Part shown: positions 4,362 through 24,702 of the stretch, in pieces
Layout of the letters: every line of letters begins with the position of its first letter
How positions within the stretch are numbered: the stretch's first letter is position 1
IMG/VR virus record: IMGVR_UViG_3300042350_000169
Location: 1 to 25,452 of that record
DNA from: a virus
DNA: 25,452 nt
Reading direction: 5' to 3' (one strand)
The notes under the pieces: generated by a model
What the model was told of the DNA's origin: nothing
What the model saw: only the letters and a program-made list of their open reading frames with translations
Databases searched by the model: none
Translations under genes and position numbers: made by a program

Positions 4362-5131
4362 TATTTTTTCCTTAAACCTAATGGATCATTGTTTGAAGAA
4401 TTTAGGTTAGGTATATTATTTCCTGATTGAATGTTCATTGCTCGAATTGCAAGCTCTCTTGCCTCTCTTTTTTGCTTAATCACAGGAGGAGCATCTCCTA
4501 TTTGAGGAAAATATTTCTTTTCTTCAGTTGCAAATTCTGCTGGAGAAATTGATGCGCCTGATTCTTTTCTTAAATTTGCGGTAACAAAATTTCTTCTAGC
4601 TTGCTCAACTTGTTGTTGTTCAGGGCTTGGGCCACCCAAAAAACCCGGCAACGCATTCATTGCCCCTGAAGTTTTTTCTTCTAATTTTTCTCCAATAAAT
4701 GGGGCTAACCCAGCAGTTCCTGACACGGCAGAACGAATAATTCCAGTATCTGTAACGCCTTTATCTTCCAATGCATTTAAGATTTGGTTTGCATCTTGCA
4801 TCCTCATGCCAAAAGCAGTTGCATTGCTTTGTGTTTCTGTCAGAGGTTTTTTATTTTCCGTAGAACGCTTTATTCTTTCTGCTGCAATGCGGTTTGCTTC
4901 ATTTGCAATAAATTCGTTACGCGCTTTTGGCGTTAAACCCGCTGGCGGCGGACTTGGGACAAGCTCAGGCAATTGAGCATTTAATGGTTGAATTGCTGCG
5001 GCTTGTGAGGCCGCTGGTGGAGCATTTGGCATAACTTGTTGCAAAGGCACATAAGACTTTTGCTTGGGCTTTGCGGCGGGCGCAATAGGCGCGGCGGGCG
5101 CATCCAATAATGGGCCTGTGTATTCAGCCAT
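4361..5131 (-). CDS. Probable internal virion protein
   Basis: A 256-residue protein. The first about 70 residues are Pro/Ala-rich and probably disordered. Residues about 75-110 form a basic helix (NEANRIAAERIKRSTENKK). The best-marked part, about residues 170-235, contains RRNFVTANLRKESGASISP followed by EEKKYFPQIGD and QKREARELAI. I remember this block as recurring in many environmental phage proteins near the tail/ejection genes, with no assigned activity. Upstream AILNALEDKG-like helices precede it. The stop/start junction with the previous gene is TAAATG, with GGAGG eight bases before the ATG, a strong site. The neighbours are other putative internal proteins, so a capsid-internal or ejection role is inferred. 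No membrane segment or enzyme motif is seen. Confidence 0.65.
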   Translation of the reverse strand: MAEYTGPLLDAPAAPIAPAAKPKQKSYVPLQQVMPNAPPAASQAAAIQPLNAQLPELVPSPPPAGLTPKARNEFIANEANRIAAERIKRSTENKKPLTETQSNATAFGMRMQDANQILNALEDKGVTDTGIIRSAVSGTAGLAPFIGEKLEEKTSGAMNALPGFLGGPSPEQQQVEQARRNFVTANLRKESGASISPAEFATEEKKYFPQIGDAPPVIKQKREARELAIRAMNIQSGNNIPNLNSSNNDPLGLRKK

Positions 5132-6322: not shown

Positions 6323-7404
6323 CAAAGTCTCCCGTAATCAACCATCAAGTAGCCGCTTGAATGTTGATGCACAGCATCTGGCATCACTTCTAACAGCTCT
6401 TGCGCCATAACACCAATCTGGCGACCGCCAAATATGTCGTATTCATAAATTCCAATGCCAATTGGGTGAGTACCAAGCCTGACAATGTTTGATTTCAATC
6501 TGCGGTCAGAAAACGTGCCTTTAGGCGCACCCAAAGCCGCCCCACCCAGCGAATACAAACCCGCTGTGGCTGCATTAGCTTGAGAAACTTGCTGGTTGTA
6601 ATTGTTTTGATCAAACGCCCCTTGTGCTTGTGTGCCTGCAAATATTGGTGCAGGTTGCACAGTAGACCCAGAATAAGCCCCAAACTGCGGATTTTGAATC
6701 TGCGAGCCAGACATGAGCGCCGTGATTTCATTCAATGGCATTTGGCGACCTTGAATTGCTTGCGCCAACATTTGTTGTTGGGCAGTATTGCCAAACTTGC
6801 CAGCTTCAAGCGCCTGACCAAATCCTTGTTGATTTGCGCCAATATCAAGGTTAAGACCCTGTAAAACCGCCTGCGTTCTAGCATCTGTCTCTTGTTGACC
6901 AAGTAGGTTGATTGCGTTGTCGTAAGCCTCTGTGCCGGGTCGCAATCCTTGATTAATCAATTGCGTTTCTGTACTGGTGCGCTGCCTTGCCAAAGACGGT
7001 TCTAAACGCTGCATGATGGCTTCTTGGCCTGTCATGCCTGCGTTAACTGGCATCTTTGCCACATTGCTCAAATCTAATGCAGTCTGAACATCAGGCCCAC
7101 CAAAGCTAAACGGCTTATCAAGCACAGTAGACGCTGTTTGCGCTCCTTTAGACCCAAGGTTAGCCAATGCCAATTCAACGCCTTGTTGAGCCTCTAAAGT
7201 CTTTTGCGCGGTCGGTGTAAGGGTCTGGCGAATGGTAGGAATATCGCCGTCATAGCTTACTAGCTGAGTGCCATATGGCGTGTAAGTATTGGGATTGGAC
7301 AACCGAGCGGTAGCCCTTGCCGATTCCAAATTGGCTGCGCCCTGCTCAATCGCCGCACCCCTGTAATCAGGCGCTGGTGGTGGTGCTGGTGCTTTTTTTC
7401 CCAT
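6322..7404 (-). CDS. Virion protein with C-terminal S74-type (intramolecular chaperone-like) domain
   Basis: A 360-residue protein. The N terminus is a short Pro-rich run (KKAPAPPPAPDYRG) followed by a helical Gln/Ala-rich body of about 280 residues, like internal or ejection proteins. The last 63 residues (from F298) match the peptidase S74 signature: SDRRLKSNI with Ser299 and Lys304 in the spacing of the known Ser-Lys dyad, then YEYDIFG, RQIGVMAQE, P..AV and a terminal YLMVDYGRL. In tail spikes and fibers this domain trimerises and cleaves itself off. Here only the front part of the usual domain is present, the gene ends right after VDYG, and the host protein is not an obvious fiber. The start has a GGGGG site 6 bases upstream and lies 38 bases inside the acetyltransferase gene. 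S74 homology is seen; activity is uncertain. Confidence 0.75.
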   Translation of the reverse strand: MGKKAPAPPPAPDYRGAAIEQGAANLESARATARLSNPNTYTPYGTQLVSYDGDIPTIRQTLTPTAQKTLEAQQGVELALANLGSKGAQTASTVLDKPFSFGGPDVQTALDLSNVAKMPVNAGMTGQEAIMQRLEPSLARQRTSTETQLINQGLRPGTEAYDNAINLLGQQETDARTQAVLQGLNLDIGANQQGFGQALEAGKFGNTAQQQMLAQAIQGRQMPLNEITALMSGSQIQNPQFGAYSGSTVQPAPIFAGTQAQGAFDQNNYNQQVSQANAATAGLYSLGGAALGAPKGTFSDRRLKSNIVRLGTHPIGIGIYEYDIFGGRQIGVMAQELLEVMPDAVHQHSSGYLMVDYGRL

Positions 7405-7810
7405 ATCGTTCCCCCAAATATTTGCAATTCTCTTTTGCCAATGTGTACAGGATCAAATCCCCATCAGCCATGCCATTTTTGATGCGGGCTTCCTCTGTAA
7501 AACCCATTTTTTCCACCAAAGTGACGCTTTTTGAATTTGTTGCATCTACTGGAACGATAATTTTTTTGACATCGCAAACCACAAAAGGATAGTCAAAAAT
7601 CACCGCCAAGTATCGCGGTGTCAATCTACCTGTGATTGCAATGTGGCACGTTATTGAGCGCCTATTCCAATTTTCGTAGATCACACCGGCAACAAACTCA
7701 CCGTTTCTTTTCAATCCGATTGACCGACTTCTTGCCTCAAAATAACCGCCCTCAATTTGTTCAGCAGTCCAATGACCCACTGAATGATCGGTAGTTATCT
7801 CAAAGCACAC
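7367..7810 (-). CDS. GNAT-family N-acetyltransferase
   Basis: A protein of about 147 residues with a GNAT-like layout: a beta-rich N-terminal half (GEFVAGVIYENW, then SITCHIAITG), a central helix (PRYLAVIFDYPF) and, near the C terminus, VPVDATNSKSVTLVEKMGFT followed by GDLILYTL. The asparagine-serine run before the last helix and the MGF turn are the standard GNAT motif B region that contacts acetyl-CoA; small phage acetyltransferases of this type are common beside tail genes. The start is uncertain: a TTG at 7822 is open, but GTG 7810 follows GAGG by six bases and gives the shorter overlap with the nozzle gene (11 bases), so I prefer it. It overlaps the next gene by 38 bases. The substrate is unknown; a host or virion protein amine is possible. 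Confidence 0.75.
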   Translation of the reverse strand: MCFEITTDHSVGHWTAEQIEGGYFEARSRSIGLKRNGEFVAGVIYENWNRRSITCHIAITGRLTPRYLAVIFDYPFVVCDVKKIIVPVDATNSKSVTLVEKMGFTEEARIKNGMADGDLILYTLAKENCKYLGERYGKKSTSTTTSA

Positions 7811-9347
7811 CGCCAGCCTCAAACACTAGATCGGTTGCGACCCACTGCAATTGTATGCCTTGCGTTGCTGTTTTCAACAACGGCGCAAAGCTGTAACCAA
7901 TATTTGTTGCACCCTGCCAGTCAGCGCTAGGTACAAGTCCTGAACCCCAAATAGCAGAATCCCATAAACCCGTGTCCCACAAGCCGTAAATACTGGTGGA
8001 AAAGTTAAGCTGCGCGGATTCATCAGCAAGGTTGTAATCCACATTCACATTGCCAAACACCGCGGGTGATCCATCACTTTGCAAGTGGTAGCGGATCATT
8101 TTGCATTGCTTTTGCAGAGCTGTTCCATAGGTTTGGAATGATTGCAAGCTAAAGCCATCAATGTCGGTGAAATCATCTGATGTGCCGTTCCATGCCGCCG
8201 CCACATAGCCATCCCCGCCAAAATAGGGGTTATCGTTAAACAATTCCCAACTTGTTGCCGCCCAGCCTGTAAAGTTACACCAGCTTTTTGTAATGTTATT
8301 CATCACATATTGCTGCTGAAACCCTGCCTGAATTGGCACGTTCATAATTAACTGGTTTTCTTTGGGGTAATACAGTAAGCACCACCCAAAATTTTGGCTA
8401 TATAAGCTGACCGCTTGGCTGACCGCATACTGGATTTTGTTGGTAATTGAGACCCTGGGATCAAGCCTAGATGACTGCAATGCCCCCGACATGGGAACAA
8501 TGCCATCCTGCGTGATGATCAGCAAATCCCCACCAAACTTTGTGTAACAGCGCCGACCAATCGGTGCGCCCATCTTCCACAAGCCCACCATTGATATGCC
8601 TGTTGGCGTGGTCGGGTCAGTCAGTCGCCAAAGAACTAGCTCGCCCTTGTTGGTGATAAACGCCAAGTTGTCGTCCACACCATAGCCAGCGTCTAGCGTC
8701 CACGTCATGCCTGCCATGATGTAGCCACCCAATTGAACCAAGCTGGTCATATCCAGCGCCACAGCCGCCCCACCAATTGCATTTATTGGCAAGTACCAAA
8801 CTTTAAGGCTGTTATTTTCAATTAACCAAATACGGTTTTTAAATAGCAAAATGTTGGAACAATCAGCCGTGTCCACGTTTGTAATGTCATAAGGCGGGCC
8901 GTCCCCATCCTTATGCCAACTTGCACCATCAAAAATTTGGAGCTTGTCTGCACCATTGACCGCCATTAAATATGAGCCGCCAGCGGTGGTTATATTGGTG
9001 TACTGAAATTTTGCGTTGGTAAGACTGCCAACCGCTGCCGAGCCAATTGCGCCGGGGTTAGTTGCGTCATAAATACTGCTTACGCTTGCAGCAAACAATT
9101 TGTTTACTGTGCCTGACGAATACGCCATTAGGCTGTCAACCGTGCCGGGAAACCCCGTGGCGTGTTTGGTGTAGCCGTTTCGCAAAATAACTGAATTCGT
9201 GCCGGGCCAGAAGTTTTGCAAAGTCACCGCATCTAAGGCATCCATTGCCCCCAACGCATCGCGGGCGTTCCAGCCCCCAATTGGCGCGGCAACCGTAACA
9301 GTTTGTGAGGCTTGCTGGCGCGGTGCTTTGGCAAATGAATTCAGCAT
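7800..9347 (-). CDS. Tail nozzle / tail tubular protein B-like (beta-propeller)
   Basis: A 515-residue, strongly beta-rich protein with regularly spaced Trp, Tyr and Gly-Asp turns. The N-terminal part (IGGWNARDALGAMDALDAVT, then LQNFWPGTNSVILRNGY) is the signature I associate with podoviral nozzle or DNA-stabilisation proteins (T7 gp12 and P22 gp10 type), which form the hexameric distal tail tube that plugs the portal channel. Repeated blades such as NILLFKNRIWLIE, NLAFITNKGELVLW and DLLIITQDGIVPMSG support a propeller. The gene follows the adaptor and a small conserved basic protein, as expected for a tail nozzle, and starts immediately after the preceding stop (TAAATG). No lytic motif is seen. 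The function is assigned from fold pattern and synteny rather than a measured match. Confidence 0.75.
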   Translation of the reverse strand: MLNSFAKAPRQQASQTVTVAAPIGGWNARDALGAMDALDAVTLQNFWPGTNSVILRNGYTKHATGFPGTVDSLMAYSSGTVNKLFAASVSSIYDATNPGAIGSAAVGSLTNAKFQYTNITTAGGSYLMAVNGADKLQIFDGASWHKDGDGPPYDITNVDTADCSNILLFKNRIWLIENNSLKVWYLPINAIGGAAVALDMTSLVQLGGYIMAGMTWTLDAGYGVDDNLAFITNKGELVLWRLTDPTTPTGISMVGLWKMGAPIGRRCYTKFGGDLLIITQDGIVPMSGALQSSRLDPRVSITNKIQYAVSQAVSLYSQNFGWCLLYYPKENQLIMNVPIQAGFQQQYVMNNITKSWCNFTGWAATSWELFNDNPYFGGDGYVAAAWNGTSDDFTDIDGFSLQSFQTYGTALQKQCKMIRYHLQSDGSPAVFGNVNVDYNLADESAQLNFSTSIYGLWDTGLWDSAIWGSGLVPSADWQGATNIGYSFAPLLKTATQGIQLQWVATDLVFEAGGVL

Positions 9348-9515: not shown

Positions 9516-10433
9516 TTAAACGCTAGGCCAATTGCCATCTTGCACACTCCACGGCCCGACCAGTTGATTCATTCCTACTGGTGCAAGCGACATGGCAGAA
9601 ACTGGTTGATCCTGAGCCTTGCAATAAGCCAGCGACCGCATGAACTCGCCCAACTCAATGGCATAGTCCAGTTTTTTGGCTTTCAGGAAATAAAACTTTA
9701 AACCTGAAAGCATCAGGTCATCAGGGAAAATACTGGTGTCGGTATCCAACGTATACGCTGACTTTGAGCCTTGATCTGAGCCTGCCGCACATACCCAATA
9801 GTTAGACACATACTCAAATGAAAAGTTGTAAACCGTGGTCAGGGCTTGAAAAATCCTGAATTTGTTGTTGTATATCCGAAAGCGCTCGCGTGGGCCAATG
9901 GAGATAATGCCGCCTTGCAAGAACTGCCAATCTTGTGATGACTTTGGCCCGAGGTTGCGCCAATGGTCTGTTCTGTCCCAATTGGTGTCCGAGATCATGC
10001 GGTCATAACCGCCCGGCAAGTCATAGTCTTGCTTGGCAAACGTCATTGAAACCGAGGCGGTGGAAGTGGTAACAGGCGCATTCAGCGTGACCTGTGAGGA
10101 GCTGTCAATTGTCAAAATCTCCGCATACGGTGTCTGCCCTGTGCCTGTAACCACGTTTCCCACCTGCAATCCAGAAGTGTCAGGGATGTTAGTAATTACT
10201 TTAGAGTTTGCCGTAATGTTGCCCGTGGTGCTCACCGCATTCTGGGTTTGCCAGATGTAAGCCTGCACCAAGCGCTGCCACTCGTAATCCCTGACCAAAT
10301 CCTTACCCAGACGTTGAGCCAAAGACAATAGCTGGATGGTTTGGTTGTTTGATGAGCCAATTACTGCCGTTGGCTGAGTCAAACCCAGCTCTCCCGATAC
10401 TTGATCAACCAATTGCAGTAATGTGTAGCTCAT
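9516..10433 (-). CDS. Head-tail adaptor / tail tubular protein A-like
   Basis: A 305-residue protein. The N-terminal helices (LLQLVDQVSGELGL, then LLSLAQRLGKDLVRDYEWQ) and the C-terminal helical part (DDLMLSGLKFYFLKAKKLDY, then IELGEFMRSLAYCKAQDQ) form the pattern I recognise in podoviral adaptor proteins such as P22 gp4 and T7 gp11, a dodecameric ring between portal and nozzle. A beta insertion at about residues 65-130 (GNITANSKVITNIPDTSGL) with repeated Val/Thr strands may be an exposed domain. It is followed by the small basic protein and the nozzle, which matches the usual order. The start has AGAGGA six bases upstream, one base from the previous stop. Assignment rests on helix motifs and gene order. 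Confidence 0.75.
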   Translation of the reverse strand: MSYTLLQLVDQVSGELGLTQPTAVIGSSNNQTIQLLSLAQRLGKDLVRDYEWQRLVQAYIWQTQNAVSTTGNITANSKVITNIPDTSGLQVGNVVTGTGQTPYAEILTIDSSSQVTLNAPVTTSTASVSMTFAKQDYDLPGGYDRMISDTNWDRTDHWRNLGPKSSQDWQFLQGGIISIGPRERFRIYNNKFRIFQALTTVYNFSFEYVSNYWVCAAGSDQGSKSAYTLDTDTSIFPDDLMLSGLKFYFLKAKKLDYAIELGEFMRSLAYCKAQDQPVSAMSLAPVGMNQLVGPWSVQDGNWPSV

Positions 10434-10434
10434 A

Positions 10435-11025
10435 TCATTCCTCTACGGTTTCTTTTTTGGGTCGGCCTGCTTTTTTAGCAGTCAACTCGTTGATCATCTC
10501 ACGCAATTGAGCAATTTCAGCGGCTTGAGTCTGCATAACTTTCTCAGTCTCAGCCCTTACGTTGTCCATCAATTTGGAATCTTTAGCCGCCAAAATAAAT
10601 GTGCGAGCCTTGTCGCGCAAGTCATTAAAGCCCATGATTTTGTTGCCCACCGAGTCGGGGAGCTGTGCAAACTGGTCAATCGTGTAAATGTGCAAAGCAT
10701 TGAACTCGGCTTTTTGGGTGTCGCTCAGAATAGACCATGCTTCCAAAGGTGTGCCTGACACGCGGTTTTCTTTCTTTTGCTCAAACCTTGCCCACTCAAT
10801 TGGGTGATCATCTACATCGGTTGGGCGCATTGGGCGGTCAACAACCAAGGTGGAATCGCCGGGTACAAGTTTCTTCAAAAACACCTTTTCATCAAAGATC
10901 GGGCGGTTTTCCTGCGCCGTCTTAAATGAGTTTTGCACCTGCTTAGTATAGAAAAACACCGCCATCTTGCCTCGGTTGTCTTCCATCCAGCTCTCGTTTG
11001 TCCAGCCTGCCACTTCGTTTTTCAT
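10435..11025 (-). CDS. Conserved phage protein with coiled coil and AT-hook-like tail
   Basis: A 196-residue protein of unknown function. Residues about 15-85 are mixed alpha/beta (KMAVFFYTKQ, FLKKLVPGDSTLVVDRPMRP, HPIEWARFEQ). Residues about 95-145 form a helical part that looks like a helix-hairpin-helix or SAM-type bundle (FNALHIYTIDQFAQLPDSVG, KIMGFNDLRDKA). Residues 150-185 are a coiled coil (AETEKVMQTQAAEIAQLREM), followed by KKAGRPKKE, where the GRPKK core resembles an AT-hook. I recall related proteins, also unnamed, in environmental phages near head-tail genes. The start overlaps the stop of the upstream DUF115 gene by four bases (ATGA), with AAGGA six bases ahead. A DNA-associated or scaffolding role at the head-tail interface is possible but unproven. 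Confidence 0.7.
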   Translation of the reverse strand: MKNEVAGWTNESWMEDNRGKMAVFFYTKQVQNSFKTAQENRPIFDEKVFLKKLVPGDSTLVVDRPMRPTDVDDHPIEWARFEQKKENRVSGTPLEAWSILSDTQKAEFNALHIYTIDQFAQLPDSVGNKIMGFNDLRDKARTFILAAKDSKLMDNVRAETEKVMQTQAAEIAQLREMINELTAKKAGRPKKETVEE

Positions 11026-11759
11026 GCTAATTCCTTGAGTTTGAAAGCAGTTTCCTGCATTAGTCCATCACCGTAAAACACCACTTCAGCGTCTTGCGTT
11101 TCTATGAATTTCTCCATTTCAATCGCAGATTGAAGCATCTGGTGCGTTGTCTGGAATGTTCTCAAACCAACTCTGACCATGATTTTAGTCTGATCTTTGC
11201 CAGTGTGAGCACCTGCGTGGCGGTTTTTTACAAACGAACAATCCATGCCATGAATGTCAAATCTGCGAAACCCTAAAGCCGCTGAAACATTCATTGCCCG
11301 CATTCCTACGCTCGAACCGCCACCTATCAGGCTTTCCATTCCCTCGGGGTGGTGCTGGGCAACCCATGCCACCGTCTCGAAATCATCTCCATTTACCAAA
11401 TGCCATACCTTAACATTTTTCCCTTTGAGGGTCTCCCAAAAGTCTGGGTGGCAAACCGAGGCCATCAGGTACTTTGTGTTCTTCTGAGGCTTTTTCAGCA
11501 TCTGCGCTTTGTGCGCTCTGGGGTCGCAGTCCACATGGAAATCAGGAATAACGCCTCTTTCCACCAGATAGTCATGCGCCCCTGAGACCGTCATTATTGG
11601 GTGCTTGAGCTGCCGCCATGTATCCTCAAGGCTCGGGCCGTAACACGCAATGGTCATGCGCCGGTCGTTGAATTTGCCCTTTTTCTTCAGCAAGGGCAAG
11701 TGCATTGACTTTGCCATCTGCTCATGGCGCTCGGCATTGGTCAAGACCCCTTTAAGCAT
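11022..11759 (-). CDS. DUF115/MptE-like protein (stand-alone module)
   Basis: A 245-residue protein with the Rossmann-type pattern of the DUF115 family (6-hydroxymethylpterin diphosphokinase MptE-like; also found in Maf flagellin glycosyltransferases). Signatures are ACYGPSL (38-44), GAHDYLVERGVIPDFHVDCD (60-79), LMASVCHPDFW (98-108), LIGGGSSVG (144-152) and FDIHGMDCS (167-175). The same signatures occur in the same order in residues 45-250 of the fusion protein two genes upstream, so the two are paralogues. The activity of phage DUF115 proteins is not known; nucleotide-sugar or pyrophosphate transfer chemistry is possible. It begins inside the end of the methyltransferase gene (19-base overlap) behind a GAGGGTGGA site. 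It belongs to the sugar/methyl cassette between capsid and connector genes. Confidence 0.75.
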   Translation of the reverse strand: MLKGVLTNAERHEQMAKSMHLPLLKKKGKFNDRRMTIACYGPSLEDTWRQLKHPIMTVSGAHDYLVERGVIPDFHVDCDPRAHKAQMLKKPQKNTKYLMASVCHPDFWETLKGKNVKVWHLVNGDDFETVAWVAQHHPEGMESLIGGGSSVGMRAMNVSAALGFRRFDIHGMDCSFVKNRHAGAHTGKDQTKIMVRVGLRTFQTTHQMLQSAIEMEKFIETQDAEVVFYGDGLMQETAFKLKELA

Positions 11760-12253
11760 TCCACCCTCATGTCACGAAATGGGAAATGGTAGCGAGGCTC
11801 GCAAAATGTGATGTTTTGCATTCCTACCGATTCCAGCATATCTTGCAATGGGCGCTGAAACCAGCCCCAATGGTGGCACATGGCTTCACTCTTGTACTTG
11901 GGGTCTCCATACAGCGCATTCAGGGTCATAAAGGGCTGTAACGGCTCTTTTTTAACCACGCAATTGTGGACATAGGCAAACACCTTGTCCATGCAGGGAA
12001 GCTCTAAAATCATCTTGCCGCCGGGCTTTAGCACCCGCTTCCACTCGGTCAGCAGGTCGTAAACCTCCCACTCGTAAAAGTGCTCTAAAACGTGGATTGC
12101 TGCTACCGCATCGGCTGAATCGGTCGCTAACTCAAGTTTTCTTAGGTCACATTGGATGTCTGCAATATCTGAATGCAGGTCTACGTTTATCCAACCGTCC
12201 CATTTCTTTTTTCCGCATCCAAGGTTGTAGGCCGTCTCGTAGCTATCTTCCAC
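11741..12253 (-). CDS. Class I SAM-dependent methyltransferase (COG4627-like)
   Basis: A small methyltransferase of about 170 residues from GTG 12253. Motif I is YNLGCGKKKWDGWINVDL near residue 10, followed by CDLRKL (motif II/III region), AIHVLEHF and WKRVLKPGGKMILELP (motif VI). This layout, with GWINVDL straight after the glycine loop, is typical of predicted methyltransferases in lipopolysaccharide and glycan clusters. The frame stays open 5' to about 12421, but that part lies in another frame of the upstream fusion gene, has no family signature and is probably not translated. GTG 12253 places motif I close to the N terminus as in homologues, though no clear ribosome-binding site precedes it. 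It overlaps the upstream gene by 67 bases. Its methyl acceptor is unknown; a sugar or peptide made by the neighbours is a guess. Confidence 0.7.
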   Translation of the reverse strand: MEDSYETAYNLGCGKKKWDGWINVDLHSDIADIQCDLRKLELATDSADAVAAIHVLEHFYEWEVYDLLTEWKRVLKPGGKMILELPCMDKVFAYVHNCVVKKEPLQPFMTLNALYGDPKYKSEAMCHHWGWFQRPLQDMLESVGMQNITFCEPRYHFPFRDMRVECLKGS

Positions 12254-13818
12254 TTGTCGATCAGTGTTTGAGGCGAGAATTCTTCCCTCACGAACTTCTG
12301 CGCCTTGGAAATAAGTTTTTCCATGTCCTGTGTTTTCGTCCATTCGATGCCCTCTTTGATGTTGCCGATGTAGATCGGGAAACCCTCCAAGGCTGGATGC
12401 GGTTCTGCAACCACAAAACACCCCTGCCGAATTGCCTCAATTGCCCTGTTTGCGCTCTTGTAAGGAGCTGTGGCAGGGATCACCACTATATCGGCTCGGG
12501 CAAATTCCCTCAGCATGGTCTCATGCGACCAAGGGATTGCCCCATCAAAGTTTGATACCACCGCAAAAGGATAACCCTTAAGGTCTGGCAGTATGCGTTG
12601 CAGGCTTTCACGGTTGACATGATGCCCATACCAAAGCAAATTATCCCCATTGCAGTGCGGTGGCATCTCGGGGTATTCATAAGGGTCAGGGATTACCGTG
12701 GCATCCCGTCCCAGCTTTTTAATTCTTTTAGCCATCTCAGTAGTTGAGCAGGTCACCGCATCCGCAAGACGCAATGCCTCTTGGTAGTGCATCCAATCAA
12801 AATGGTCATCACAAAAGTCCACCACCACCCATGCGCCTCGGGCTTTGGCTCTTGCCATCACCATCAGCTCATTGGCCTGCGGCTTGGCAAACACCAGTGT
12901 GTCAGCAGTCAAATCGTTCTGGCTTGCCCAGTCGCCCGCAGGTATCTTGGCCCGATAGCGCCAGCTCGCAGCGTTCTTGTCGCCCCAATGGATGAATGAT
13001 GTGCGATTGTTAAGCTCTGTCTTGCCATTGATGATGCCGCCCAGCTCCATTATGTTTTGCTCGCGCTTTTTAATAATGGCTTGGATCAGGCCATGCCCAT
13101 GCCCATTAAATACCGCATCTGGCAAGTAATCGTAGTAGGTTTGGAAATGCTCGGCCTGCAACGCCATTGCGGTATTGCAATAAAAGGTTTCGCCTTGCGG
13201 GTCAATCTTGACCTCAACCAAACTGTCGCCCTCTTTGATTTTTTCGCCGTTAACCCTAAGCATCTGATCCTCATTACAAGAATCAAAGCCAAACAGTTCA
13301 AACTGGCGGTAGCCAAGGACGTAGAACAGCGATATAGCCCTTAATCCCGAGGTTGTGCCCCCACCTATCAGCATGGAGTTTTTAGGGCGGTCTTGGCCCT
13401 TTTTGACGTAGGGATGCCATATCGTGACCTGATACCCATTGAGGTTGTCAAACAGCGCTGGGTGGCATTGGCTGGCAATCATGTAATGCACTTCCTTGCG
13501 TGGCTTGTAAAACGCAATACGGTGCTCTTGTGGGTCAATAGCTAAGGCATAGTCGGGTATCACGCCTTGGGCAATAAGCCAATCGTGTGCGCCCTTGATC
13601 GCCACAATGGGCGACCCCGCCGCTTTCATCTTTCTAATGACCTCTATCTGACCCCTAACGCTCGGTGCGCTTGCCACCAACAAGATCGGCTCAGTCTTTA
13701 TGGGCTGGGCTTGCTTGATCTGCGGATAACCTCTGGCGATTGCCGCATCCATGTGGGCAAACAGTGTCTCATCTTCAGCGACACATTTTCCGGTTATTTT
13801 TAAGGGTACAGAACTCAT
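12187..13818 (-). CDS. Two-domain DUF115-glycosyltransferase (GT4-like) fusion
   Basis: A 543-residue bimodular protein. Residues about 43-250 form a DUF115/MptE-like domain: VASAPSVRG (48-56), GAHDWLIAQGVIPDYALAID (76-95), MIASQCHP (113-120), LIGGGTTSG (150-158) and FELFGFDS (173-180). Residues about 270-525 look like a GT-B glycosyltransferase of the GT4 type, with ADAVTCSTTEMAKRI (352-366), TVIPDPYEYP (374-383), LLWYGHH (394-400) and the sugar-nucleotide region KSANRAIEAIRQGCFVVAE (454-472). The Lys-Ser-Asn-Arg and Glu-Ala pattern before a glycine matches the GT4 donor-site motif. A role in glycan transfer is inferred; acceptor and donor are unknown. It is the first gene after the capsid block; its AAGGAGG site lies inside a hairpin (13827-13849), so expression may be separately controlled. 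Confidence 0.8.
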   Translation of the reverse strand: MSSVPLKITGKCVAEDETLFAHMDAAIARGYPQIKQAQPIKTEPILLVASAPSVRGQIEVIRKMKAAGSPIVAIKGAHDWLIAQGVIPDYALAIDPQEHRIAFYKPRKEVHYMIASQCHPALFDNLNGYQVTIWHPYVKKGQDRPKNSMLIGGGTTSGLRAISLFYVLGYRQFELFGFDSCNEDQMLRVNGEKIKEGDSLVEVKIDPQGETFYCNTAMALQAEHFQTYYDYLPDAVFNGHGHGLIQAIIKKREQNIMELGGIINGKTELNNRTSFIHWGDKNAASWRYRAKIPAGDWASQNDLTADTLVFAKPQANELMVMARAKARGAWVVVDFCDDHFDWMHYQEALRLADAVTCSTTEMAKRIKKLGRDATVIPDPYEYPEMPPHCNGDNLLWYGHHVNRESLQRILPDLKGYPFAVVSNFDGAIPWSHETMLREFARADIVVIPATAPYKSANRAIEAIRQGCFVVAEPHPALEGFPIYIGNIKEGIEWTKTQDMEKLISKAQKFVREEFSPQTLIDKWKIATRRPTTLDAEKRNGTVG

Positions 13819-13819
13819 T

Positions 13820-13849
13820 AAAAAGACCCCTCCTTTTTTAAGGGAGAGG
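13820..13849 (-). terminator. Hairpin terminator that also buries the next gene's ribosome-binding site
   Basis: In the 39-base gap between the decoration gene stop and ATG 13818, the minus strand reads CCTCTCCCTT, AAAA, AAGGAGGGG, then TCTTTTT. The arms (about 13840-13849 and 13827-13835) pair over roughly nine base pairs with one bulged C and one G-T pair, followed by a U-tract at 13820-13824. It looks like an intrinsic terminator ending the capsid operon. The right arm also contains AAGGAGG, the only good ribosome-binding site for the downstream fusion gene. The same region on the plus strand has a T-run, so it may work both ways. Confidence 0.6.
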
Positions 13850-13857
13850 CCATTTTT

Positions 13858-14391
13858 TTACACAGGGTTAGACGGCATTAAGCCTGCATTGTTAACCATG
13901 CAGAATGGTGCTGATGCAGAAGTAGCCGAGGTGTTAGCCACGATACCTTGGATGAAACCGGCAGACACGGTTGTGTCGTCCAGCGCACCGGGGGTAGCAG
14001 TGGTGTACAAAGGCACTTTAGGATTGCATCCAACCAGCAAGTTAACCTGCAACATACCGTTCAAGCCAACCCAGCCGTAATAGCTAGAGGCAATCGCAGT
14101 TTGTGCAAAGCCAACCATGTTGTAACCCAAAGCCGCAGCATTTGTGGTGGTCACAGGCACAGCACGCATCACAGGAGTCAAGCTCGCTGAGTTTGCGTAT
14201 GTGCTCATGATCACCGCATCAAATGCGTTGATAGTGGATTCGGCGCGGACAAACATATACACGCCGTTGTTGGAGGTGTTCACCCGTGTACCGGGGGTAA
14301 CGGGGAACAAAGTGGTTGAACCAGCAGAAGTTGACGCATAAGTAGCGGTCAAATCAATACCAATTTTTCCATCGGTGACGTAATCAGCCAT
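13858..14391 (-). CDS. Probable capsid decoration/head-associated protein
   Basis: A 177-residue protein, beta-rich and poor in charge, with strands such as STTLFPVTPGTRV, NGVYMFVRAEST, AFDAVIMS and MLQVNLLVG. It lies immediately downstream of the major capsid gene (12 bases from its stop) with an AAGGAG site about 8 bases before the ATG, the common slot for a capsid decoration or head-stabilising protein. The GVYMFVRAESTINAFDAVIM stretch resembles small beta-barrel proteins that coat capsids. There is no signal peptide or enzymatic motif. It ends 39 bases before the fusion gene, just ahead of the terminator hairpin. The decoration role is inferred from position and fold impression, since no diagnostic motif is seen. 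Confidence 0.65.
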   Translation of the reverse strand: MADYVTDGKIGIDLTATYASTSAGSTTLFPVTPGTRVNTSNNGVYMFVRAESTINAFDAVIMSTYANSASLTPVMRAVPVTTTNAAALGYNMVGFAQTAIASSYYGWVGLNGMLQVNLLVGCNPKVPLYTTATPGALDDTTVSAGFIQGIVANTSATSASAPFCMVNNAGLMPSNPV

Positions 14392-14402
14392 GATTTTGCT
14401 CC

Positions 14403-15383
14403 TTATTCAGTCATCACGCCTTGGAACTGGAGTCCCGAGGCTGTCATATTGCCAGCCCAGCCGATCAAGCGCACGATTGCGTCCTGATTGGTAGACATAC
14501 GCTCATCACCGATAGGAACGAAATTCCGATTGGCGTGAGGACGGAAGAAAATGTACTTCGTGTTAAGGAAGTAACCAGTGGATGTTGGAATATTACCGCC
14601 GATACCACCGTCAAGAACAACGTCAGCGTTCATGTACTTGGAAGCAACAAAGCCTAATTCAGCCATCTTGCTTGAGCCGGGGAAACGCTGGATGTTTTGC
14701 AGGGAAGACATGAAGAAGCCCCACAAGTTGTTGTCCAACAAGATCAAATCGACAACATCAGAGCCGCGACTTGTCTTTGCATACAGGCGGTTAAAACCGG
14801 TCTGAATGTTGGAGCTGGAAGCAGATGCGCCCAGATCGCCAGAGAAGTCAAAGGTCTGGTTTTGCCAGAATGACCAAGTTGCACGGTCAATGCCGCCAAC
14901 CACACCAGTGGATGGAGACGCAACCACCATAGCTTGCAAACCAGTGATTTGCTTGCCGTTGTTGGCTGTACCGTCAGAATAAATACCAGTAGAAATCAAG
15001 TTCTCAATGGATGCCTCGGCAACGTCCAAACGTGCGTCAAACAAATCGATGATCTGTTCTTCGCCGCTGTTTTGGAGCATTTCCAAGCCATTGATGGTGA
15101 CTGCTACGGCTGCCTGTTTAATCGGGAACTGAGCCGCACTGATCACGTCCGCTGGGGAGATGTTCAATACTTCAGCGCCTGAGTAGTACATGGCTGTTGA
15201 GTTTGCTTGGAATGACAACTCTTGCAGAATTGTCGATCCACCTGTGAAAGGCTTGTAACGGCCTTTTTCGCGCAGGCGAGTCAGCAACGCATTGTTTTTG
15301 GTCACGTTATCGGCAACGATGCCCGAGCGTGATTCAATGGTGGTTGCTAAAACGTCTGAGTAATTACTATTGGCGTATGCCAT
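14403..15383 (-). CDS. Major capsid protein (HK97-type fold expected)
   Basis: A 326-residue protein right after a scaffold-type gene, with features of environmental podoviral coat proteins: an N-terminal arm (ANSNYSDVLATTIESRSG), the glycine-containing strand GGSTILQELSF, and GAEVLNISPADVISAAQFP with IKQAAVAVTINGLEMLQNSG. These are typical of the E-loop and spine-helix area of HK97-fold coats. The C-terminal half has NLWGFFMSSLQNIQRFPG and YIFFRPHANRNFVPIGDERM, consistent with the A-domain and P-loop. The size matches a coat protein with no delta domain of its own, in agreement with a separate scaffold. The AAAGGGG site lies six bases before the ATG. No maturation protease is in this block. 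Confidence 0.85.
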   Translation of the reverse strand: MAYANSNYSDVLATTIESRSGIVADNVTKNNALLTRLREKGRYKPFTGGSTILQELSFQANSTAMYYSGAEVLNISPADVISAAQFPIKQAAVAVTINGLEMLQNSGEEQIIDLFDARLDVAEASIENLISTGIYSDGTANNGKQITGLQAMVVASPSTGVVGGIDRATWSFWQNQTFDFSGDLGASASSSNIQTGFNRLYAKTSRGSDVVDLILLDNNLWGFFMSSLQNIQRFPGSSKMAELGFVASKYMNADVVLDGGIGGNIPTSTGYFLNTKYIFFRPHANRNFVPIGDERMSTNQDAIVRLIGWAGNMTASGLQFQGVMTE

Positions 15384-17225: not shown

Positions 17226-18098
17226 TTACGCCCCCCAAGTGGCAGATGGTGCGGCAGTCACCCATAAATTGGTTGCCGAGCTGTAAACCAATATATCGCC
17301 ATCATTTGGGTTTTGTGCCGACACATTGTGCAACTCATCCATTTCGTAGCCGTTTTGGATGTTGACCTCAATTGAGCCTTGATTTTGATGGCTGCGGGTC
17401 ACAACGCCTATATAAACCAAGTGGTTAGGCGCATATTGTTTGGTAGATGTGTACTCGCCAGCTACTGAAGAACTTAAATAAAGCTGTGTGCCAGCGGCAT
17501 ACGCAAAAGTATCTAGCCCTGCAATGTCGCCAGCCAAGATCACATAACCATTGTTACTTGTTGAAATATCTGCCAGAACCAAACCAAATGTTTGAGCAGA
17601 ACTAATGTCGCTTGTTGCAATAGCTTTGGTTACGGTGGGTTTGTTGCCAGAAGCGCCACTAATGTAGACAACCGTTCCCTTTGTCAAAAGTGCGCCGGTT
17701 TCATTGCGAACCTCAGAAATCAATCTCGGTGAGGAATAAACCTTTGCTTCAACTTCAGAACCAGTTTGGTTAATTGTGACGCTACCATCATCCGACACAA
17801 TAGAAGTTATTGTGTGTTCAGCAGGCAAGGTGACAAATACATCCTTTGTGCCAGCCGCAAGATCAAGTTTTGAGCCTGTGGATGAGGAAATTACGGTTGT
17901 TCTGGCTAGTGTCCCGCTGGAATACGTCCCGATTCCCACCTCCCACTGCGTACCGCCTGCAATGGTGTAATAGGTTGTATTGGCGTTGCCAATGACCGCA
18001 AATGACTGAAAGCCCTCAATTGAGCCATCCAGCGTGATCGTCCCAGTCCCTGTGGAGGTGGTGGTCTGTCTTACCCGATCAGCAAGGACAAGGCTCAT
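17226..18098 (-). CDS. Virion surface/fiber-type structural protein
   Basis: A 290-residue beta-rich protein. The N-terminal 90 residues (LADRVRQTTTSTGTGTITLD, GFQSFAVIG, WEVGIGTYSSGTLARTTVIS, TKDVFVTLPAEH) match a domain I recall from many environmental phage structural proteins. From about residue 130 a second module (GTVVYISGASGNKPTVTKAI, FGLVLADIS, GDIAGLDTFAYAAGTQLYLS, HLVYIGVVTRSHQNQGSIEV) resembles capsid-decoration or head-fiber-type folds. It lies between portal and head-assembly genes, so it is probably a head-associated or receptor-contacting protein rather than a tail fiber. It starts on the portal stop (ATGA) without a clear ribosome-binding site, so translation is likely coupled. 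The exact location in the particle is not known. Confidence 0.65.
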   Translation of the reverse strand: MSLVLADRVRQTTTSTGTGTITLDGSIEGFQSFAVIGNANTTYYTIAGGTQWEVGIGTYSSGTLARTTVISSSTGSKLDLAAGTKDVFVTLPAEHTITSIVSDDGSVTINQTGSEVEAKVYSSPRLISEVRNETGALLTKGTVVYISGASGNKPTVTKAIATSDISSAQTFGLVLADISTSNNGYVILAGDIAGLDTFAYAAGTQLYLSSSVAGEYTSTKQYAPNHLVYIGVVTRSHQNQGSIEVNIQNGYEMDELHNVSAQNPNDGDILVYSSATNLWVTAAPSATWGA

Positions 18099-20395: not shown

Positions 20396-20396
20396 A

Positions 20397-20672
20397 TCAG
20401 TTACCGCTAGAGAAGAAGAACGTCACATCTAATGTGCTGCCTATGGTTGCGTGTAGGTTTGATCCCACGTTGGCAGGGAATCGGTGAAACCCAATGGCTG
20501 GCGTGATCGTGCCAGACATGACCGCACCGCTTGCGCCACCATCCTTGAGCACCAAAGTGCCTGAGCTGGTGTTATTAACGTAGAAACCAATCAACTGGCA
20601 AGGGCCAGTGCTGACTGCGCCTGTGCTGGTGATGTTTTTGTATCCACCTACTTCTGCTACTGGCTGGCTCAT
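20397..20672 (-). CDS. Small beta-rich phage protein between terminase and portal
   Basis: A 91-residue protein: YKNITSTGAVSTGPCQLIGF, YVNNTSSGTLVLKDGG, GTITPAIGFHRFPANVG and ATIGSTLDVTFFFS. I recall this pattern (ISGTITPA..GFH.FP...) as a frequent small open frame in environmental phages, often near terminase or structural genes. It is almost all beta strands and has a single Cys. It starts on the large-terminase stop (ATGA) with AGAGGA six bases upstream and ends one base from the portal start. It may be a capsid or head-decoration component, but I cannot tell from sequence. Confidence 0.75.
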   Translation of the reverse strand: MSQPVAEVGGYKNITSTGAVSTGPCQLIGFYVNNTSSGTLVLKDGGASGAVMSGTITPAIGFHRFPANVGSNLHATIGSTLDVTFFFSSGN

Positions 20673-22484: not shown

Positions 22485-24029
22485 AGCATCTTTCCAGCCG
22501 CGCTGCTTAACTTTTTCTTCGTAGGCTTTGATTTGGTCAATCAATTGTTGGTCAATGATCTGGAATACGCCAGCCTTGCGTTTTTCTAATGCGCCAATGA
22601 CTGCATCGTGTATCTGGCTTTCATTAAAAGGCTTGCCGTTTTTGTCTACGGCATTTTCATATTCTTTGCGTATGGCGTTGTATCGGTCGCGCATAAATAC
22701 TTCAGATGGCACATTACCTATGCCGCCCACATATTTGCCGCTGAAGTCTGTTGTGTAACTTGGGTTGCTTGATGGCGATAGTGTTAAGGGCTTTTTTCCA
22801 TGCGACATCACCACATTCAATCCATATCCTCGCGGTACACCCAATAAATCTTCGGCAGTAATTGCGTTGCTTATGTCTTGCCGGTTAAATTTAAAATATT
22901 TTTCGTTGTCTTCGGTGTACATTGACCGCACAAACTTTTTGCGTAATTGTCCATTGTTTACATTTAGCAATTGCGCTCTACCCTCTGGCGTATTGATACC
23001 GGCAAATTCTGGGTAATCCTCTTGTACAAATTTATTTATTTCGTTTGCTTTAGATTTTGCAGCCTTACGTTTATCAAATAAATCTAATAATATAGTTGTT
23101 GGTTGTACTGAGTAATTTTCTGAAAACGCTCCCATTGTAGTGGGTGTTTGTAAAACAATGCCCGAGCCACCAGCGTCTAGGTTTTCTTTTCTTGCAACAT
23201 CCACACGGTCTGCAATTCTGTCAACAATGCTTTTGGCTGATGCCCCGCCAATATTTTTTTGTTGATGCAAAATATCCATCAAATGGCCTTGCCCGCCAGT
23301 AGTAATTAACGGGTTTGTCAGCGCTTCATCTGATACAGATTCAATTCGGACGTTTCGGCTTGAATTGTCCCAAGGAATTGTGCCTATGCTTGCGCCCTTG
23401 TATTTTTGTATGTCAAATGCTTGCGGGGCTACCAAACCGCCTAAATCAGTTCTTTGATACCTTGTGCCAACTTCTGGCGGCATCTTTGGTCTAGTCGGCA
23501 TATAAATAAATTGCGACTCAGGCGTAATTGTTCCCAGCAATGACCGTGTGGGTTGGCCTGTGAGCTTGTTGCTAATTTCTTGCCCCGCCAATTTTGCATA
23601 TCCTGTTACCGCAGGTTTCAGCACTTTAGCGGTCGCTGGTGTCATGTACCCGCCCAGCTCCTCCATCCCCGCCGTTTCTGGTCTGGTGGCCGTTCCTCTA
23701 GGCATCATGCCCAAAATATCCCGCGAGCCGCCCGGTAACTGTTTGTCAGGCGTGTAGTTCACATCCCCAAACACTTCCATTGGGTAAGGTGTCCTAACCG
23801 TGTTTGCGGTATCCACAGGCGCACCCAAAAATGTTGATAAACCTCCGCGACCCAATGATTCCAGATTACTGCCAACCGCTTGGCTAAACCCTTTCAGCAT
23901 TCCAAGCAGGTCGCCGGCCGTGGCTTTCTTGCCGTTTTTCAGCGTGATCAACGTGTCAGCCGTAATCGGGCCGGTATCTTGTCCATACCCACCACCCAGC
24001 GCCGCAGCCATGTCACGGTAATCAGCCAT
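22473..24029 (-). CDS. Polyvalent/ejected-type phage protein, function unknown
   Basis: 518 residues from ATG 24029. A TTG one codon upstream is open, but GGGAG lies seven bases before the ATG. The N-terminal region has LKNGKKATAGDLLGMLKGF followed by GGLSTFLGAPVDTANTV and then GSRDILGMM, with RPETAGMEELGGYMTPATAK. This GAPVD-type run recurs in large polyvalent proteins and ejected proteins of phages (recalled). The middle and C-terminal region has ESVSDEALTNPLITTGGQGH, then YPEFAGINTPEGRAQL, GQLRKKFVRSM and SNPSYTTDFSGKYVGG, resembling a domain in the same class of proteins. It does not look like a virion shell protein. A role as protein delivered with DNA is plausible. It is coupled to the GT8-like gene by an 8-base overlap. 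Confidence 0.6.
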   Translation of the reverse strand: MADYRDMAAALGGGYGQDTGPITADTLITLKNGKKATAGDLLGMLKGFSQAVGSNLESLGRGGLSTFLGAPVDTANTVRTPYPMEVFGDVNYTPDKQLPGGSRDILGMMPRGTATRPETAGMEELGGYMTPATAKVLKPAVTGYAKLAGQEISNKLTGQPTRSLLGTITPESQFIYMPTRPKMPPEVGTRYQRTDLGGLVAPQAFDIQKYKGASIGTIPWDNSSRNVRIESVSDEALTNPLITTGGQGHLMDILHQQKNIGGASAKSIVDRIADRVDVARKENLDAGGSGIVLQTPTTMGAFSENYSVQPTTILLDLFDKRKAAKSKANEINKFVQEDYPEFAGINTPEGRAQLLNVNNGQLRKKFVRSMYTEDNEKYFKFNRQDISNAITAEDLLGVPRGYGLNVVMSHGKKPLTLSPSSNPSYTTDFSGKYVGGIGNVPSEVFMRDRYNAIRKEYENAVDKNGKPFNESQIHDAVIGALEKRKAGVFQIIDQQLIDQIKAYEEKVKQRGWKDASRK

Positions 24030-24702
24030 CAACCGTCTCCCGCATTTTAATTAAGCCGTTCATCATTCGGCTTTTAGTATTGTGCCACTGCTTACTGAAA
24101 TCACAATCTTGGTAATGGTCAAACTCAGGAATGCCTAGCGTGTAATGCGCTATCTTGGCGTTTTTGTTGTCTTGCTCGCCCACCAGTACGTTCCATTCTT
24201 TCGGTAGCTCACCGATAAGTGAATCGGGCAACCAACCGAATCGGTGCAAGTCTGAGCCGCTGTGGTCATCCACAAACTCAGGTGTTAATACCTTATTTCT
24301 TGGGTGATCACAATTCCAAAGTATTAAACTTGACCAGTTCTTTCGGGGATAGTCCCGATTCGCCGCTTCCATCGGTGTGCCAATGTATTTCCTTGGGTGC
24401 TTGGTCTGATATTCGTGCTTGACCACCTGCACCGCCTTGGTCGGGTCAAACAGCTTGCTTAGGTCAGCAATGTTGGACAGCATCAGCATATCGCTGGCAT
24501 CCATAAATATCGCCCTGCCAGTGAATTTGGTGAAATAGGGGACTAGAAACCGCTGATAGGTAAATGCGTTTGTGCCGTCCCGCTGTGTACCGTGTAGCGG
24601 TGTTATGGCGACTGGCTCGCTGGTGCGCTCAATCAGGCTCTGGCAGAACACATGGTAGCCAATGGCCTCCCGAGGGTCATAGCCAGCGAATATTCTGATC
24701 AT
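24022..24702 (-). CDS. Glycosyltransferase, GT8-like (GT-A fold)
   Basis: A 226-residue protein with GT-A features: RIFAGYDPREAIGYHVFCQS at the N terminus, YQRFLVPYF, and FMDASDMLML, in which D68-A-S-D71 is the likely metal-binding DXD-type motif. Next is YPRKNWSSLILWNCDH (118-133), a common acceptor-side stretch, and a C-terminal KIAHYTLGIPEF (183-194) with a His that often coordinates the metal in GT8-like enzymes. It would transfer a hexose from a nucleotide sugar to an unknown acceptor, perhaps a virion protein, host surface glycan or modified DNA. It begins on the upstream gene's stop (ATGA) and overlaps the 518-residue gene at its end. The family name rests on recalled motifs. Confidence 0.8.
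   Translation of the reverse strand: MIRIFAGYDPREAIGYHVFCQSLIERTSEPVAITPLHGTQRDGTNAFTYQRFLVPYFTKFTGRAIFMDASDMLMLSNIADLSKLFDPTKAVQVVKHEYQTKHPRKYIGTPMEAANRDYPRKNWSSLILWNCDHPRNKVLTPEFVDDHSGSDLHRFGWLPDSLIGELPKEWNVLVGEQDNKNAKIAHYTLGIPEFDHYQDCDFSKQWHNTKSRMMNGLIKMRETVDG

Follow-up and report, generated by a model that had tools for sequence, protein, structure and literature searches.

The window analyzed here, a 25,452-nucleotide stretch of the IMG/VR virus record IMGVR_UViG_3300042350_000169, carries within its head operon a cassette of three genes that is core to its clade. The cassette encodes a stand-alone DUF115 (Maf-like) protein, a methyltransferase, and a fusion of a DUF115 domain to a GT-B half (Table 1). 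We somewhat favor the reading that the cassette glycosylates and methylates a virion protein late in infection; the catalysis, the sugar donor, and the acceptor are what we infer. DUF115 enzymes are known chiefly from flagella and archaeal pterin synthesis. Glycosylation of phage virions has, to our knowledge, been described for just a few phages in culture (PMC11256854).

Position and conservation of the cassette

ORF calling and Pfam searches confirmed the names and coordinates that the initial annotation had given to its three sugar- and methyl-type genes. All three are minus-strand genes whose ends overlap, and they span 11022-13818. The overlapping stops and starts described there are real and are kept across 58 complete loci, with 67 nt shared by the fusion and methyltransferase genes (52/58), 19 nt by the methyltransferase and stand-alone DUF115 genes (57/58), and 4 nt by the stand-alone DUF115 gene and the next gene (51/58). 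The methyltransferase gene has a GTG start near 12253, within the fusion gene.

Table 1. Features of the head operon and cassette in the window (aa, amino acids).
Feature	Coordinates	Strand	Support or remark
Connector/tail protein past the slot	9516..10433	-	phrog_6013 E=3.3e-43
Mx8 p50-like protein	10435..11025	-	phrog_20268 E=3.1e-12; position of Mx8p50; downstream boundary of the slot
Stand-alone DUF115 (Maf-like) protein, 245 aa	11022..11759	-	PF01973 E=1.3e-18
Class I SAM-dependent methyltransferase, 170 aa	11741..12253	-	Methyltransf_11 E=1.3e-10
DUF115 (Maf_flag10/MptE-like)-GT-B fusion, 543 aa	12187..13818	-	PF01973, AF2 fold, 80/80 clade loci
Fusion, GT-B (GT4-like) half, residues 271-521	12256..13008	-	Fold match, alignment, sub-threshold Pfam
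Fusion, DUF115 domain, residues 11-251	13066..13788	-	Fold match and alignment; near-invariant phage-DUF115 His replaced by Arg
Conserved terminator-like hairpin, then U-rich stretch	13825..13851	-	Between decoration gene and cassette
Decoration/virion structural protein	13858..14391	-	phrog_29386 E=4.7e-5; upstream boundary of the slot; candidate acceptor
Major head protein, Mx8-type	14403..15383	-	phrog_9953 E=1.3e-104; candidate acceptor
GT8-like glycosyltransferase upstream of terminase	24022..24702	-	Glyco_transf_8 E=5.9e-4, sub-threshold

In the Mx8-type head operon the cassette has a fixed position, the slot, with the decoration gene on one side and "p50" on the other. The decoration gene does lie upstream, as first described, but the connector named as the other neighbor does not adjoin the cassette, as the p50-like gene intervenes. 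The slot is present without the cassette in Mx8 and ppBjS10J-1, and in BUCT555 lysis genes sit there, so the slot tolerates late non-virion cargo. Within the clade the cassette was kept in all 80 loci found via DUF115, in 43/43 complete-slot loci found via the coat protein, and in all 65 coat-found loci with room downstream of the coat gene. Its dN/dS of 0.04-0.10 indicates purifying selection and, together with the gene order kept in 80/80 relatives, rules out a chance arrangement. Additionally, the GT8-like gene, present in 9/9 clade genomes, possibly encodes a further member of the pathway.

The hairpin that separates the decoration gene from the cassette has a predicted energy of -15.7 kcal/mol (z -3.0), and its 3' arm overlaps the purine-rich region ahead of the fusion start codon. 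Both-side changes occur in seven of its nine pairs, 94% of cells are paired, and its covariation score was matched by 0 of 500 shuffles. It is this covariation that singles the hairpin out; the consensus scan alone is insufficient, since it returned 7 terminator-like sites where 8.9 were expected. Because the hairpin parts the coat and decoration genes from the cassette, the joint production with the capsid that was first proposed becomes doubtful, and the enzymes are probably made in smaller amounts than the capsid.

Domains and folds of the three proteins

The Pfam model PF01973 is the former DUF115/Maf_flag10 model, since renamed "MptE-like". Both cassette DUF115 domains matched it above its curated cut-off (64 and 67.8 bits against 34.6), in the fusion at residues 40-184 (E=1.9e-17), and the stand-alone protein is a paralogue of the fusion's N-terminal half (34% identity, E=4.8e-26). 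As the confidence of the AF2 models was moderate (72.5 for the stand-alone protein and a mean pLDDT of only 64.7 for the fusion), only clear fold matches were used. The stand-alone model matched Maf (PDB 5MU5) at Z=19.4 with 219 residues aligned and the fusion at Z=17.6 with 223, while the stand-alone model scored 13.0 against 6-hydroxymethylpterin diphosphokinase (HPPK) and 9.6 against CstII. A profile built from diverse DUF115 domains of phages matched Maf 5mu5 over 183 positions (E=2.3e-15); searching the PDB with a single sequence, or using profiles made from the clade alone, gave no useful information. The stand-alone protein keeps the GPS motif, the G-x-D, and the His of the Maf "RHH" stretch. 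Because the fusion has Arg in place of a His that is nearly invariant among phage DUF115 domains (H181 in the stand-alone protein), the stand-alone copy is, judging from these residues, likelier to be the active one.

Support for the GT-B half comes mainly from its predicted fold. Residues 386-521 of the fusion model matched the GT4-type C-terminal domains of PimA, BshA, and TarM (Z 8.7-9.4 over about 100 residues), and residues 407-481 matched Glyco_trans_1_2 at E=0.002 and 18.5 bits, under that model's cut-off of 25. In the clade alignment the EX7E motif is incomplete: the second Glu (E461) is invariant, the first is absent, and position -8 holds Tyr or Lys. The methyltransferase has an NLGCG motif invariant across the clade alignment and also matched phrog_6636 (E=3.8e-8). 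The DUF115, GT-B, and methyltransferase assignments of the initial annotation are thus upheld by Pfam and, for GT-B, by the AF2 fold, and its remark that the DUF115-GT4 order is unusual was apt, as in the other sampled phages the glycosyltransferase fused to DUF115 is of a different type and lies N-terminal to it.

The present name of PF01973 raises another reading, in which DUF115 would be an MptE-like pterin pyrophosphokinase and the glycosyltransferase and methyltransferase would finish a cofactor or a base of the packaged DNA. The HPPK fold matches (Z 13-14) are in keeping with it, as are a pterin glucosyltransferase and a phage glycosyltransferase among the GT-B fold matches. However, the profile similarity to HPPK (E=3e-4) is limited to about 80 N-terminal positions (12-89), no pterin or modified-base synthesis family was present among the scanned ORFs of a 35.9-kb relative, and the sulfotransferase and FkbM fusions described below suit sugars better. 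We therefore regard a small-molecule or DNA-base pathway as very improbable; modification of a small molecule, raised in the initial annotation, is likewise weakened by the fusions of DUF115 with sulfotransferase, glycosyltransferase, and FkbM domains and by the persistent head-gene neighborhood.

DUF115 beside the head genes of other phages

The initial annotation had called for a search for DUF115 near phage coat genes, and the outcome was a persistent head-gene association in unrelated phages. Of 80 loci from the profile scan, 46 have DUF115 in the slot described above, including many other Mx8-like lineages, and so do two MAG contigs. Among 21 other phage loci tested, 14 contain a head or packaging gene (portal, terminase, or MCP of other PHROGs), six have no informative neighbor, and one (L384) lies beside a tail-spike-like gene. 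Often the DUF115 gene directly adjoins MCP/decoration or portal genes, in phages whose portals and capsids are unrelated. Two outcomes named at the outset as adverse, a lack of any DUF115 or GT-B fold and the presence of the same genes elsewhere in related phages with a known function, both came out the opposite way.

The domain is also joined to changing partners, as DUF115-methyltransferase, methyltransferase-DUF115, GT-DUF115-FkbM, and sulfotransferase-DUF115 fusions, and the same methyltransferase (41% identity) can be fused at either side of it. Such a range of partners is more in keeping with the tailoring of glycans than with pterin or host-envelope chemistry. If the cassette instead acted late in infection to modify the host's flagella or surface glycans, for superinfection exclusion or release, the head operon would merely give late expression, as the lysis genes in the BUCT555 slot allow, and the Maf relatives do O-glycosylate Ser/Thr of flagellin (PMC11339370). 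We nevertheless consider this unlikely: none of the three cassette proteins has a TM segment, the 35.9-kb relative showed neither a flippase nor a pathway for surface glycans, and DUF115 recurs near head genes across unrelated portals and capsids. The host-envelope alteration offered in the initial annotation thus loses ground.

A sugar on a tail or other late non-head protein, such as the connector, a tail fiber, or a small S/T-rich neighbor, would be compatible with the gene next to DUF115 in L384 and with phrog_644, which lies directly downstream of DUF115 in 7/7 tested unrelated phages and whose family follows minor-tail genes in mycobacteriophage Pumpkin. In the window's clade, however, a phrog_644-type neighbor is absent and the late gene nearest upstream encodes the decoration protein; we think such an acceptor quite unlikely. 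A S/T-rich gene next to DUF115 as systematic acceptor was considered and was not significant over 21 lineages (p=0.16).

Using tblastn, the fusion and the stand-alone DUF115 retrieved no match among 50,697 phage records, and other phage DUF115 queries retrieved only two matches, both to the methyltransferase half, of which one has a possible divergent DUF115 beside it; no cultured carrier was found among these records. A profile scan of 84,980 bacterial and archaeal species genomes found none of the clade's own DUF115 and therefore identified no host or gene donor, and a coat-profile scan of genomes returned only distant Mx8-like contigs. In the papers searched, DUF115 or MptE-like proteins of phages come up in a few incidental mentions, none of them on this system.

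Since the same kind of enzyme adjoins head genes in several unrelated phages, the pattern suggests an undescribed, widespread means of sugar-coating virus particles. It is close to an even call, leaning slightly against, that tailed phages whose capsids belong to several unrelated lineages have in common an undescribed class of modular Maf-like DUF115 glycosyltransferases, linked to head genes and bearing methyl-, sulfo-, or glycosyltransferase domains, which build virion glycans. Head glycosylation of this kind would account for a large body of late genes that lack annotation, would supply new O-glycosyltransferases with non-flagellin acceptors, and would make the frequency of sugar-coated phages, and the reason for them, testable. 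The family recurs beside head genes of unrelated phages and is in no searched cultured phage record.

Proposed function and known systems

In the virion glycosylation that we favor, the stand-alone DUF115 would act in the cytoplasm, putting an activated, probably host-made sugar on Ser/Thr residues of a late protein made in abundance; the decoration protein (S+T 21.5%) or the coat is the likeliest acceptor. The GT-B half of the fusion would then add or extend sugar, with its altered DUF115 half perhaps serving in binding or targeting, and the methyltransferase would cap the glycan by O-methylation. Because their genes lie behind the hairpin that trails the coat and decoration genes, the enzymes would be made in amounts suited to catalysis rather than to a structural role. 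This scheme has to assume a donor supplied by the host, as the 35.9-kb relative showed no gene for nucleotide-sugar biosynthesis. The Maf donor is a CMP-linked nonulosonic acid; a MAG holding a GT-DUF115-FkbM phage contig gave no match to NeuB, so the donor there may be another sugar. The modification system first proposed is thus strongly supported by comparative genomics in its link to the head operon, while virion decoration stays the best reading of it.

Among phages, the mycobacteriophages Che8 and Rita carry glycans on their major capsid proteins and encode glycosyltransferases, according to PMC11256854, which cites Freeman et al. 2023. The glycosyltransferases of Maravista, a relative described there, lie near the genome's 3' end, outside the head operon, and a DUF115 enzyme is not mentioned in that account (PMC11256854). 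The uncultured podophage MW202512 encodes a TPR protein, a methyltransferase, and a GT8 between MCP/small head genes and tail genes; it differs from the cassette in having no annotated DUF115 and in its capsid.

Archaeal MptE (PDB 8SD5) shares the Pfam model and the general fold with the cassette DUF115 domains, but the match is weaker than that to Maf, and no pterin family was present among the ORFs scanned in the window and the 35.9-kb relative. The GT42 sialyltransferase CstII shows a structural likeness, as Maf itself has been reported to do (PMC11339370), with no sequence-level relation found and a different context. The closest relatives are the Maf flagellin glycosyltransferases, among them Magnetospirillum Maf (PDB 5MU5), with which domain family and fold are shared. 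The cassette lies in a phage head operon rather than a flagellar locus, with no flagellin in the window or the ORFs of the 35.9-kb relative. Maf has three domains (Rossmann-like N-domain, central Maf_flag10, helical C-domain), whereas the phage stand-alone protein corresponds to the central domain alone, the fusion bears GT-B in place of an architecture with Maf N- and C-domains, and other phage DUF115 domains are joined to a methyltransferase, a glycosyltransferase, or a sulfotransferase.

Gene order and conservation of the cassette

On the minus strand of the 25,452-base window, an IMG/VR virus record, a GT8-like gene is followed by the terminase, the portal (phrog_12082), a scaffold-like gene, the major head protein (phrog_9953) and the decoration protein (phrog_29386), after which come the three cassette genes, a p50-like gene (phrog_20268), a connector/tail protein (phrog_6013) and more late genes. 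The DUF115 domain of the fusion and the stand-alone DUF115 protein are paralogues (34% identity, E=4.8e-26).

Features of the window and of other phage loci
Record	Feature	Coordinates	Length	Assignment
Window	Fusion gene (minus strand)	12187-13818	543 aa	PF01973 N-terminal half, GT-B C-terminal half
Window	Middle cassette gene (minus strand)	11741-12253		Small SAM methyltransferase; GTG start inside the fusion gene
Window	Last cassette gene, stand-alone DUF115 (minus strand)	11022-11759	245 aa	PF01973 protein
Window	Decoration gene	13858-14391		phrog_29386
Window	Hairpin, then T-rich stretch	13825-13851		Between decoration stop and fusion start
Window	p50-like gene	10435-11025		phrog_20268
Window	GT8-like gene	24022-24702		Glycosyltransferase, upstream of terminase
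Window	GNAT-like gene	7367-7822		Acetyltransferase, close to tail genes
Stenotrophomonas phage BUCT555 (L085)	Two genes between decoration and p50	6646-7966		Annotated holin and endolysin
L404, Mx8-like phage	Short protein ahead of GT-DUF115 gene	4092-4724		Weak RmlD (dTDP-sugar reductase) similarity, below cut-off (E=0.0058)
L322 (MW202512), unrelated uncultured podophage	Genes between MCP and tail genes	17254-20687		TPR protein, methyltransferase, GT8

All three cassette genes were kept in 80/80 loci found with the stand-alone protein, and in the same order in all 58 of these that had both flanks. Because this locus set was found by a cassette gene itself, the test was redone with the coat protein (80 loci, coat identity 96-100%). 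The fusion was present in 65/65 coat-based loci having at least 1.2 kb downstream, and all three genes were present in 43/43 where p50 was visible. Median dN/dS was 0.105 for the fusion, 0.063 for the methyltransferase and 0.039 for the stand-alone protein, in the range of the coat (0.035) and connector (0.065). The cassette is core to the clade and is no transient moron.

A GT8-like glycosyltransferase is found in 9/9 clade genomes, with relatives of the window's copy in Pelagibacter, Caulobacter and cyanophages, and it could be a member of the cassette's pathway. The GNAT-like gene, matched in place by annotated acetyltransferases in several Mx8-like phages, could encode a further modifier of virion proteins.

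The slot and DUF115 in other phages

In Mx8 and Bradyrhizobium phage ppBjS10J-1, which have the same operon, the decoration gene directly adjoins p50. This slot was compared in annotated relatives and in 80 further Mx8-like contigs, chosen by similarity to another coat; between decoration or coat gene and p50, it was either short or held long repetitive or beta-rich ORFs (as in loci L174-L245), which by sequence alone look like surface proteins. Given that its content varies from these to the lysis genes of BUCT555, the slot is a site for cargo within the head operon.

A profile made from the clade DUF115s and one DUF115 from a Rhodopila MAG contig yielded 280 matches in viral contigs. The top 80 were retrieved; being ranked on likeness to a single query, they are not an unbiased census. 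An Mx8-like phage with DUF115 in the slot accounts for 46 of these best 80 loci, and the partners differ: some have DUF115 alone and others a DUF115-MTase protein of about 440-450 aa; in L368 and L370, GT-DUF115 is accompanied by an FkbM methyltransferase encoded separately, and in L404 a long GT-DUF115 protein precedes another DUF115. In the Rhodopila contig, a single 702-aa protein combines all three domains (GT-DUF115-FkbM), its GT part assigned by phage glycosyltransferase similarity and not by Pfam, whereas the DUF115 of a Gemmatimonadaceae contig stands alone.

The remaining fetched loci belong to other phages. When 21 were tested with PHROGs, the retrieved sequence around DUF115 included a portal, connector, terminase, major head or virion structural protein in 14, the head and packaging families being mostly unlike the window's (portal phrog_113, 1216, 156, 2662; MCP phrog_334, 283); one of the other seven had a tail-spike-like gene and six gave no informative match. 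Most of these loci encode MTase-DUF115, opposite in order to the DUF115-MTase proteins, and the MTase parts of the two are 41% identical (E=5e-40); therefore, the same two domains have been joined in both orders. The L386/L403 cluster encodes sulfotransferase-DUF115 (Sulfotransfer_3, E=9.4e-8). In a tree of 32 DUF115 domains, the other-phage MTase-DUF115 group lies apart from the Mx8-like group, with modest deep support. The S/T-rich phrog_644, of unknown function, lay at or near the 3' side of DUF115 in 7/7 tested loci (L382, L386, L390, L391, L392, L401, L416); in mycobacteriophage Pumpkin it comes after minor tail genes.

No cultured phage carrying the DUF115 family was found. Only one annotated record comes close: in an uncultured siphophage, the MCP is directly followed by an MTase and what may be a divergent DUF115 (E=0.0022, below the cut-off). 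Besides the genes tabulated, L322 has an FkbM methyltransferase adjoining its terminase.

The hairpin ahead of the cassette

The hairpin after the decoration gene (-15.7 kcal/mol, z -3.0) would not be picked out by a consensus scan alone, which gave 7 terminator-like sites vs 8.9 expected. Across the clade, 94% of cells pair, with changes on both sides in 7/9 pairs; the covariation score was reached by no shuffle, and sliding the partners destroyed the signal. Hairpins of this kind also come after the decoration gene in most of the other Mx8-like phages with DUF115 that were examined, as well as in Mx8 and ppBjS10J-1, which are without DUF115, so this one probably marks where the coat-decoration unit originally ended. 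The 3' arm overlaps a purine-rich region before the start codon, the fusion's ribosome-binding region. The initial annotation expected the cassette products to be made together with the capsid; the covarying terminator-like hairpin amends this to likely expression by read-through, at a lower level.

Fold, probable working copy and proposed function

AlphaFold2 models were built with clade alignments (pLDDT 72.5 for the stand-alone protein, 64.7 for the fusion). The top solved-structure match of the stand-alone model was the Magnetospirillum Maf glycosyltransferase 5mu5 (Z 19.4, 219/245 residues), with clearly weaker matches to archaeal HPPK (Z 13.0) and the sialyltransferase CstII (Z 9.6). In the lower-scoring fusion model, residues 11-251 matched Maf (Z 17.6) and residues 386-521 matched GT4-type C-domains (Z 8.7-9.4).

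The His of an 'HHAY' stretch, which aligns with a Maf His, is kept in 30/32 phage DUF115 domains. The two exceptions are both fusion sequences of the window clade, with an Arg that is invariant in the clade alignment. Because the stand-alone protein keeps this His, it would be the working DUF115, and the fusion would act via its GT-B half, in which the clade alignment shows the first Glu of the EX7E motif to be absent.

Maf enzymes attach nonulosonic acids to Ser/Thr of flagellin by O-glycosylation; their central Maf_flag10 domain resembles CstII, and at least one of them can use Kdo or Neu5Ac (PMC11339370). This glycosylation precedes chaperone binding and export, i.e., it is cytoplasmic (Parker et al. 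2014, as cited in PMC11339370), and phage capsid glycosylation is reported for mycobacteriophages Che8 and Rita (PMC11256854). On account of these precedents, the slot, the partners and the finding of no membrane segments in the cassette proteins, the most likely function would be to modify a late virion protein in the cytoplasm by adding a methylated sugar, the sugar donors being supplied by the host. A DUF115 phage lies on a contig of one MAG in which NeuB had no match, so the sugar donated may be Kdo or a different one.

With a profile built on 32 diverse DUF115 domains from phages, Maf was matched by sequence over most of the domain (E=2.3e-15) and HPPK over only about 80 N-terminal positions (E=3e-4); therefore, the current name of PF01973, that of a pterin enzyme ('MptE-like'), is an unsafe guide to function here. 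We class the cassette proteins neither as MptE nor as Maf enzymes, from which they differ in architecture and locus.
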